Virus record (IMG/VR): IMGVR_UViG_3300009506_000005
Location: 1-64,000 of that record
Length of the DNA stretch: 64,000 nt
Origin: a virus
Strand: one strand, 5' to 3'
In this document: piece by piece, positions 59,872 to 62,023 of the stretch
Layout of the letters: each line of letters begins with the position of its first letter
Position numbering within the stretch: position 1 is the stretch's first letter
The notes under the pieces: generated by a model
Seen by the model: the letters and a program-made list of their open reading frames with translations, nothing else
Told to the model about the DNA's origin: nothing
The model's database searches: none
Translations under genes and position numbers: made by a program

Positions 59872-60678
59872 ATGGCAGGCAAGCGCAAACCACTGAAAAC
59901 TCAACGCCGTAAGTGCGGACCCAAACCACCCGGCGAGGAGATCAACTACAAGTACATCGACCGACTCATCGTCCATGGCGAAACCAGAGTAGACCCAACT
60001 ACCAAAGAAAAAATGGTCACTTACCCCACATACAGGGAACTCGCCGCACGATTCGGAGTCTCGCATACCACCATCTCCAACTACGCCAGACGACATAACT
60101 GTATAGAAAGACGCAAGAAAGCCATCCAGCGGGAGCACGAGAAGATTGACCAGACACTCGCTGAACTGAGGTCGGATGCCCGCGCCCTCTCGATCGAGGA
60201 TGAGCTTCGCATGGTTGACAGTGCCCTCCTCGATGCCTGGACCCGGATCAAGGAGGGGGGGCTGAGAGTCGACTCCATCTCTGACCTCAACGTTGCGATA
60301 AGACTCAAGAAGTTCCTCATGGGTGACGTGGAGAGCCGCGTCGCCGTCCAGCATGGGATCGCCATCGAGGACATCCAGAAGCGGCACCAAGCTGCGGTGA
60401 AGCTGGCGAACACGGTCGCGGACGAGGCCGAGCAGGAGCGGGCCCGCCTCCTGGCTGGCGAGGTGGATGACGCCCCCATCGACGTGGAGTTCACCGCAGA
60501 GGACAAGAAGCCCGAGGAGAGCTCGCCGGCCGAGGAGCCCGCAGGACCCCAGGAGAGCCACGAGGATGCGCCTGAGGAGCCGAATGAGGACGATCCCTTG
60601 GCCACCATCATGCGGCTGGAGAACGAGAGCACAGAGCAAGAGAGCGGCCCGAGGCCTCCTCTGGTAGCTGGGGCCTGA
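59872..60678 (+). CDS. HTH protein resembling a terminase small subunit
   Basis: 268 residues; ATG 59872 chosen because upstream frame is not protein-like and the promoter ends here. Basic N-terminus, then TYRELAARFGVSHTTISNYA (about 48-67), a helix-turn-helix, RRHNCIERRKKAIQREHEKI, a helical middle (LNVAIRLKKFLMGDVESRVA) and an acidic proline-rich C-terminus. This is the architecture of terminase small subunits, but no large subunit is encoded in the window, so another DNA-binding role is possible. Confidence 0.5.
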   Translation: MAGKRKPLKTQRRKCGPKPPGEEINYKYIDRLIVHGETRVDPTTKEKMVTYPTYRELAARFGVSHTTISNYARRHNCIERRKKAIQREHEKIDQTLAELRSDARALSIEDELRMVDSALLDAWTRIKEGGLRVDSISDLNVAIRLKKFLMGDVESRVAVQHGIAIEDIQKRHQAAVKLANTVADEAEQERARLLAGEVDDAPIDVEFTAEDKKPEESSPAEEPAGPQESHEDAPEEPNEDDPLATIMRLENESTEQESGPRPPLVAGA

Positions 60679-60843
60679 ATTATATTAGGGCTCCTTAGGC
60701 CCTCACACCATCCGGTCATCGCATCAATCTGCCGAACGCTGAACAAGCTGGTCTCATCAAACCGCCGGCTGAGACCTGACCCGCCTGTGGATCGTTCGGC
60801 TGACCCCCCTCGCCAGCCTGGCCGATTGCCTACTTCACGTAAT

Positions 60844-60957
60844 AGTGGCAATGGTTTCGGGGTGTGCTCGTATGATTCCGCGTAGTTACGAGAGAGCGTG
60901 GCCCCTGGATGCCAGGTACCCGTTGCCACTTTCGCTAGCTGGACCAGGGGCCGACGC
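60844..60957 (+). ncRNA. Pseudoknot-capable structured element
   Basis: Stem 1: AGTGGCAATGG (60844-60854) with CCGTTGCCACT (60920-60930), eleven pairs including one G-U. Stem 2: GCGTGGCCCCTGG (60896-60908) with CCAGGGGCC-G-ACGC (60944-60957), thirteen pairs with one bulge. The second strand of stem 1 lies in the loop of stem 2, so the two interlock. A further hairpin CTCGTA/TACGAG (60867-60892) sits between. AGTGGCAAT can instead pair upstream with ATTGCC-T-ACT (60825-60834), a possible switch. No known RNA family recognised. Confidence 0.5.
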
Positions 60958-61075
60958 CTACCGCAGAGGGCGACGACCCGTAAGATCCTGTAACCATTAA
61001 TAAAACCCAAAATTTCAAAAATACTGTAATTCAGGGTAGGCGCATCCCCCTCCACACACTGGGTGGGATCTGGTT

Positions 61076-61175
61076 CCTTTCCAGGGAAAGGCTAATGATA
61101 GTGGGTAGTTAGTGGGTTTACAGGGGGAGTGGGCGGTTTCTGGAACCTTTCCACGTTAGTCTAATGAAAACGTGG
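61076..61175. repeat. Two related hairpin repeats
   Basis: CCTTTCC AG GGAAAGG (61076-61091) followed by CTAATGA, and a second copy CCTTTCC (61146-61152) whose tail CCACGTT pairs with AACGTGG (61151-61157, 61169-61175) around CTAATGA. The shared CCTTTCC...CTAATGA layout marks a diverged direct repeat about 70 bases apart. Confidence 0.5.
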
Positions 61176-61347
61176 AGTTATGAGAATTCGCAAGGTTTCC
61201 AGTGGATTGTTGTTGGATGTGGGAGATGGTAGCGGAGAGTATCGATGTAAAGGAATGGGGCCGATGGAGGCTGTATTGTCAATCGAGGATGGTGTGTGAT
61301 GGCGGTTTGTTGCTCACGTATGAGCGGCGAGGGCGGTTGTTGTTCAT

Positions 61348-61440
61348 GGATCGGGGTTTGATTTCACGAAAGGGCCTTTCTGTTTCACGGATCGGGGTTT
61401 CGTTTCAGGAATGGGGCTAGAATTTCACGGATCGAGGATT
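61348..61440. repeat. Tandem repeat of about 40 bp, three copies
   Basis: GGATCGGGGTTT at 61348 and 61389 and GGATCGAGGATT at 61429, spacing 41 and 40 bases, each preceded by TTCA(T/C) and followed by TTTCA(C/G)GAA in the first two. Non-coding. Candidate binding-site array. Confidence 0.6.
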
Positions 61441-61627
61441 CTGAAAATCCGGGATCTTGGGGGTGGTGGGGATTTGAAGCTTGACGGAAAGAAAGTGGTG
61501 TGGATAGTGTCGGGGGTGAGCCGGTCTCCGGCGGGGTGCTTGGTCTTGGAGCTGCGATGCCCCCCCCCACATCCACGCGAGACCATGTGCTGGAGGCCGG
61601 CGTTTTTTCTTGGTCCTGTTCCTCCTT

Positions 61628-61764
61628 CATTCAGTGGACTAGATCGCGGGATTCTTGGGTGGAGTAGTCCAGGGGCTTCGTGAGGCTGCGGAGAATGGGC
61701 GTGAGGGGGCGTTTGGGAGTGGACTAGTTGATGGGTAGGTAGTGCGTAGGTAGTCCACTGAATG
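61628..61764. repeat. 137-bp element with 14-bp terminal and nested inverted repeats
   Basis: CATTCAGTGGACTA (61628-61641) is the exact reverse complement of TAGTCCACTGAATG (61751-61764). Inside, TAGTCCA (61665-61671) pairs with TGGACTA (61720-61726). Four TGGACTA cores thus alternate in orientation. No coding frame and no clear target-site duplication. Could be a cruciform, a protein-binding cluster or a miniature element. Confidence 0.65.
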
Positions 61765-62023
61765 CGATTGTGGGGAGGCTGGGAGGGGAACGGGGGCCCC
61801 GCCCGCGGGGCGGGCTCCTGGGGCTGGGAGCAGAGGGCTTGGTGGCCGGGCCCGGGGGGAGTGGATCCGCTTGGTGGCGGCGCCCGGAGCATGGGAGATC
61901 ATCTGCTTCCGCTGGTCTTCGATCGCGCGCACGCGACTTGACCCCGCCCAGCTGTCGTGCGAGGATGGATCCAGATGCCGGGATTGAGCATCGAGACAAC
62001 CGAAAGGAGAAGGAGATGAAACG

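Follow-up and report, generated by a model that had tools for sequence, protein, structure and literature searches.

A conserved three-copy DNA element beside the small terminase gene of phages and prophages, mostly from Myxococcota, is a candidate recombination site

Described systems and the locus

The lox site of phage P1 maps near pac, and loxP has a 13-8-13 geometry. The Cre-loxP system serves multimer resolution (PMC10999674). A 208-aa recombinase consisting of the catalytic core, gp143 of phage phiCbK, has been proposed to resolve multimers or replicative intermediates (PMC3556154), and Tyrovirus gp50 is a structural-module recombinase with an inverted-repeat attP just downstream of its gene (PMC9703825). 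Among packaging sites, lambda TerS binds a motif that is repeated three times in cosB, and SPP1 TerS brackets pacC (PMC4856287).

The locus described here was found in a window of 64,000 nt, which is the whole stretch of DNA analysed and corresponds to positions 1-64000 of a 113,769-base IMG/VR virus record. An initial annotation had reported an unusual element directly behind a terminase-small-like gene, and both the element and its position hold up. The two genes to which the element is tied are as follows.

59872-60678, + strand: terminase-small-like gene, 268 aa (match to the TerS of phage TP-84, identity to relatives, synteny)
76906-77541 of the record: short tyrosine recombinase gene, directly before TerL and about 16 kb from TerS

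The first gene encodes a protein with a winged-HTH-like N-terminal part and a helical middle. It matches TP-84 TerS at 1e-4 by tblastn, and a profile of its family matches the same protein at 4.5e-10. Furthermore, it is 29-37% identical to eight relatives that are encoded upstream of TerL (alignment A1). An AlphaFold model has a pLDDT of about 90 across the HTH region. Comparison of this fold with the PDB gave no significant match, the best-ranked entry being 2ao9 (a protein of a Bacillus cereus phage; E = 1.2). Scanning viral contigs for exact back-translations of TerS produced no match. TerL, portal and head genes begin at 78.6 kb in the record. The ends of a 1629-aa frame (L003 6782-11665; record 84782-89668) have matches to methyltransferases, head maturation proteases and RNA ligases, a mosaic typical of head proteins that contain an intein.

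To the right of the element, the stretch at 61000-62000 is gene-poor and has a strong GC skew (0.315). It includes four iteron-like copies of TTTCACGGATCGGGGTTT spaced about 20-40 bp apart (61330-61441), which could be a replication origin, and a perfect 14-bp inverted repeat, CATTCAGTGGACTA at 61628-61641 and TAGTCCACTGAATG at 61751-61764, with its halves 109 bp apart.

A search with TerL recovered 38 viral loci, and a search with TerS recovered 10 viral and 39 genome loci, the latter being mostly Myxococcota prophages. Fragmentary sequences and MAG contigs, with host labels that may be wrong, account for many of these loci. Approximately 40 loci are arranged as TerS(+), intergenic region, short tyrosine recombinase(-), TerL(+). 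More than 35 loci from phages or prophages have the element adjoining a terminase-small-like gene. Most of them are in Myxococcota genomes, and other carriers are MAGs labelled Deinococcota and Pseudomonadota. Wherever element and TerS are both visible they are adjacent, with no recognised gene between them, and the element sometimes overlaps the end of terS (L076, L079 and L087). Two records, those of the window phage and of L012, have the element about 10-145 bp from TerS and the recombinase some 15-16 kb away. TerS separates the element from the recombinase in L075, where the element is upstream of terS, and in L082, where the recombinase occupies the opposite side of terS. The few TerS loci without a visible element are L065 and L089, and L013 has a weak trace of 13.8 bits. 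The degenerate prophages L063, L066 and L089 were excluded from the arguments below.

Several relatives have further features in this region. In Myxococcus and Corallococcus prophages (L019, L020, L021, L023 and L024) the HTH domain of terS is tandemly duplicated, and incomplete copies of terS separate the gene from the element. Because these copies intervene, the distance between element and TerS reaches about 2 kb in the Myxococcus prophages. The gap between terS and the recombinase gene in Myxococcus prophages also contains, besides the element, repeated words AAGTGAAC and GTTCACTT (L019 8380-9310 and relatives) and long conserved inverted repeats.

Three copies of one motif

Alignment of the relatives (alignment A2) and matches to the resulting model, termed R1, define a composite element with the following parts.

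60821-60941, + strand: conserved composite DNA element (model R1), about 121 bp
60822-60834, + strand: copy A, CCGATTGCCTACT, left dyad arm (alignment, covariation); read in the initial annotation as an alternative pairing partner
60835-60842, no strand: A-B centre, 8 bp, varying between lineages (alignment)
60843-60855, - strand: copy B, TAGTGGCAATGGT, inverted copy, right dyad arm and 5′ strand of stem S1 (alignment, covariation)
60876-60890, + strand: conserved middle motif, TTCCGCGTAGTTACG, family consensus TTCGCGnnCTTnCG (A2 columns 68-82)
60919-60932, + strand: copy C, CCCGTTGCCACTTT, consensus GCCGCTTTCC, 3′ strand of stem S1 (alignment, covariation)

The motif common to the three copies reads roughly GAATGGCCGCTTT. 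Copies A and B form a dyad in which 13-bp arms flank the variable 8-bp centre, and their GCC-N16-GGC spacing is invariant in all 30 aligned rows (A2). In about half of the rows, copy A is degenerate at its spacer-proximal end. The middle motif contains CGCG in 27-29 of the 30 rows. Copy C follows B at a distance of 77-79 bp; in L010 alone, this distance is 89 bp and thus longer by about one helical turn. Other spacing is rigid to about 1-2 bp, as would be expected for a protein bound to DNA.

In the element alignment, 10 A:B pairs and seven B:C pairs are altered on both sides, although the cells counted come from related sequences and are not independent events. Sliding the partner by one base abolishes the covariation signal for both pairings. 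Moreover, all three copies change in concert across phages. This behaviour is expected of a repeated protein-binding motif, and alone does not indicate an RNA.

Model R1 matches the window record with E = 8.4e-10 and relatives with values down to 1e-18. The element was detected in 24 of 25 records, at 1-5 matches per record. In the examined loci, all strong copies adjoin the module and nearly all copies adjoin TerS or recombinase homologs, with one element per phage module. An unbiased pattern scan of viral contigs returned 31 matches. The seven that include copy A all adjoin TerS, recombinase or TerL genes, whereas the 24 that lack copy A never do. The same intergenic gaps yielded no further conserved word. 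A direct search for DNA similarity to cultured phages found none, the element is absent from TP-84 and from Brevibacillus phage Emery, and no published description of it was found. Emery, a cultured phage, does have a tyrosine recombinase gene of its own (gp1, L165 36-908) shortly before a related TerL, without the element.

The element does not have a fixed strand. It is inverted relative to terS and terL in L047, in L156 and in L081/L083/L085, and the recombinase tree requires at least two changes of orientation. Comparison of L078 with L081/L083/L085 reveals inversion in place, the flanking sequence to either side being collinear. The inverted segment is at most about 270 bp long and contains the element (L078 6110 versus L081 6613, L083 6553 and L085 4463). 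Inversion in place in at least two lineages argues that the element works as DNA and not as an RNA of the terS strand. The element also lies mostly between the 3′ ends of convergent genes. We conclude that it is very probably a DNA site rather than an RNA.

Recombination and packaging

The linked recombinase is a XerC/XerA-like member of PF00589 that consists of the catalytic core only (about 205 aa). Residues R49, K78, H153, R156 and Y188 are invariant in the recombinase alignment (A3), the window phage included. Prediction of its fold from a single sequence had low confidence (mean pLDDT 37). Tyrosine-recombinase core sites have inverted arms of 9-13 bp around a centre of 6-8 bp. The A-B dyad has this form, and an intact R-K-H-R-Y recombinase is encoded in the same genome.

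Four contigs that bear the module also encode a large serine recombinase. In M. qinghaiensis the serine recombinase is at the prophage edge and the terS-element-recombinase-terL module is central. This separate enzyme and its edge position suggest that the short recombinase is probably not an integrase. The element was also considered as an attP for prophage integration and rejected, since the prophages are unsplit there, with terS and terL on either side, and carry serine recombinases.

The reading that we favour, at a probability of roughly 0.45, is that the element is a recombination site for the linked 205-aa enzyme and serves multimer resolution or cyclisation. The recombinase would act on the A-B dyad, and C, at a distance of about 78 bp and beyond the fixed motif, would be the third copy to be bound. 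By joining one copy of the site to another, whether in concatemers, dimers or terminally redundant DNA, the enzyme would resolve or circularise the phage genome beside the packaging start, much like Cre-lox in P1. We infer both the identity of the binding protein and the type of reaction. The lox-like geometry of A-B with its invariant spacing, the concerted change of the copies, the synteny, the restriction of copy-A-bearing matches to the module, the inversion in place, the intact catalytic residues and the separate serine recombinase are all consistent with this proposal. In contrast, the degeneracy at the spacer-proximal end of copy A argues against it, as do the absence of any observed recombination product and a Mantel test that does not single out the recombinase. 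In this test TerS and the recombinase co-vary equally with the arms; no co-evolving partner is separated because the distances of the two proteins are themselves correlated (r = 0.89).

The resemblance to P1 Cre-loxP extends to a single site per genome, a 13-8-13 dyad, a dedicated tyrosine recombinase and a neighbourhood of packaging genes. The present system differs in that its recombinase is a catalytic core only, its site includes the third copy and the middle motif and is unrelated in sequence, and several of its carriers are integrated prophages with a serine recombinase rather than plasmids. With phiCbK gp143 and Tyrovirus gp50 it shares a short or structural-module tyrosine recombinase that is thought not to be an integrase (PMC3556154), and with Tyrovirus an inverted-repeat site downstream of the recombinase gene (PMC9703825). 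However, gp143 has no known site, the Tyrovirus site has 11-bp repeats around a 6-bp core and no third copy, and neither enzyme has been described as linked to terS via such a site.

The element may instead be a pac/cos site for packaging initiation, at which the winged HTH of TerS would bind the three copies and TerL would cut at the middle motif or nearby. Judging from the sequence comparisons, we regard this as a serious possibility, although one that falls short of even odds. The adjacency and occasional overlap with terS noted above are in its favour. Furthermore, displacement of the recombinase, by about 15 kb (the window, L012) or to the far side of TerS (L075, L082), leaves the element at TerS, an arrangement that fits TerS better as the binder. 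Three repeats with a bend site between them follow the plan of lambda cosB, and sites on both sides of a cut follow that of SPP1 (PMC4856287). Likeness to lambda cosB (R3-I1-R2-R1) and to SPP1 pacL-pacC-pacR also includes three short motif copies with a conserved segment between them, a place beside terS and fixed spacing. Unlike those sites, A and B here form a strict dyad with a variable 8-bp centre, and the element is a putative site only, which usually follows terS on its 3′ side and is linked to a recombinase gene.

Three metagenomic contigs (L006, L009 and L156) end at most about 500 bp from the element on its TerS side, as a packaging site might produce, but such ends are few and fall at different positions. 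A variable A-B centre is also unlike a conserved TerL nick site, and inversion against terS and terL in two lineages would be tolerated but is unneeded by a packaging site. In L065, TerS and TerL are present without the recombinase or a visible element, the upstream side of this locus being outside the available sequence. Finally, the packaging reading leaves the linked recombinase without a recognised site, because no other conserved word was found nearby.

Both activities might also reside in one system. Specifically, we tentatively consider an undescribed, packaging-linked recombination in which the minimal recombinase and the three-copy site by terS would couple processing with circularisation, and in which the copies may be shared with TerS; on balance we doubt this more than we believe it. 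Headful or concatemer processing would then be coupled with circularisation of the genome at one place, mainly in phages of Myxococcota.

Palindromic multi-copy sites are common operators. Binding by a regulator or by a host DNA-bending protein, with control of terS, of the recombinase or of late transcription as the outcome, would make the element an operator or accessory site. Its intergenic location and palindromic multi-copy form would agree with this. We consider this improbable, since the element usually lies between convergent 3′ ends and not upstream of a start, and its orientation and side relative to terS vary.

Predicted folds

Read as RNA, the locus had been interpreted as an H-type pseudoknot with a competing pairing, in which stem S1 is crossed by a stem S2 with the following arms.

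60896-60908, + strand: 5′ arm of S2, GCGTGGCCCCTGG, present in the window, without conservation
60944-60957, + strand: 3′ arm of S2, CCAGGGGCCGACGC, present in the window, without conservation

The pairings exist as drawn. S1 joins 60844-60854 (AGTGGCAATGG) to 60920-60930 (CCGTTGCCACT) through 11 pairs, 10 of them Watson-Crick and one G-U, with a duplex energy of -17.6 kcal/mol. S2 has 13 pairs with one bulge (-26.3 kcal/mol), a 6-bp hairpin spans 60867-60892, and the alternative partner at 60825-60834 pairs with an energy of -9.0. As folding, these stems are unexceptional in this GC-rich window. For 60800-60960 the nested MFE corresponds to z = -1.31, and equal stability is reached by 19 of 200 shuffled sequences. 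Helices of S1 strength number 34 in the window versus about 25 expected; crossing pairs of comparable strength number four, versus 0-2 in simulated sequence, and the + strand of the whole record holds 28 crossing pairs with an equal or higher score. The earlier impression that no known RNA family is present agrees with a search of Rfam covariance models, which gave no match at gathering and relaxed thresholds.

S1 is copy B against copy C, and its competitor is copy A against copy B. Both are genuine relations that are certainly not due to chance, because they are conserved repeats. The idea of two exclusive folds is nevertheless unsupported, as each pairing sets two of the same three motif copies against each other. 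A counterpart of S2 was sought in 24 relatives and is missing from nearly all. Of the compensatory changes in both stems that would have supported the fold, those of S1 are seen, whereas S2 has no counterpart in which they could occur. The H-type pseudoknot RNA is therefore rejected: its crossing stem is unconserved, spacing is rigid, and the element lies on the opposite strand relative to the genes in two lineages. The initial annotation had expected a packaging RNA, a pac/cos site or a riboregulator at such a position, and of these pac/cos is still a live reading.

A structured RNA or riboregulator that is transcribed behind terS and forms an A:B/B:C switch or a pseudoknot is very unlikely: paired changes support both pairings and B:C mismatches are more often G-T than A-C (20 versus 8), but A:B mismatches are about equal (15 versus 13), leaving no clear strand signal, the third copy changes in concert as repeated protein sites also do, and the unconserved S2, the z of -1.3, the lack of an Rfam match, the opposite strand in two lineages, the rigid spacing and the location mostly between convergent genes all speak against it. 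Like phi29-type pRNA or other phage pseudoknot RNAs, the element is next to packaging genes and can be drawn as a pseudoknot; unlike them, it has no conserved pseudoknot, no fixed strand and no Rfam match. Three repeated protein sites can mimic a switching pseudoknot RNA when one sequence alone is read.

The element, terS and the recombinase constitute a conserved module in poorly studied phages and prophages, mostly of Myxococcota. In these phages the element is a ready-made site for studying circularisation or packaging. As a putative recombination site, it is furthermore a candidate for the kind of site used by the catalytic-core-only tyrosine recombinases of lytic phages such as phiCbK.
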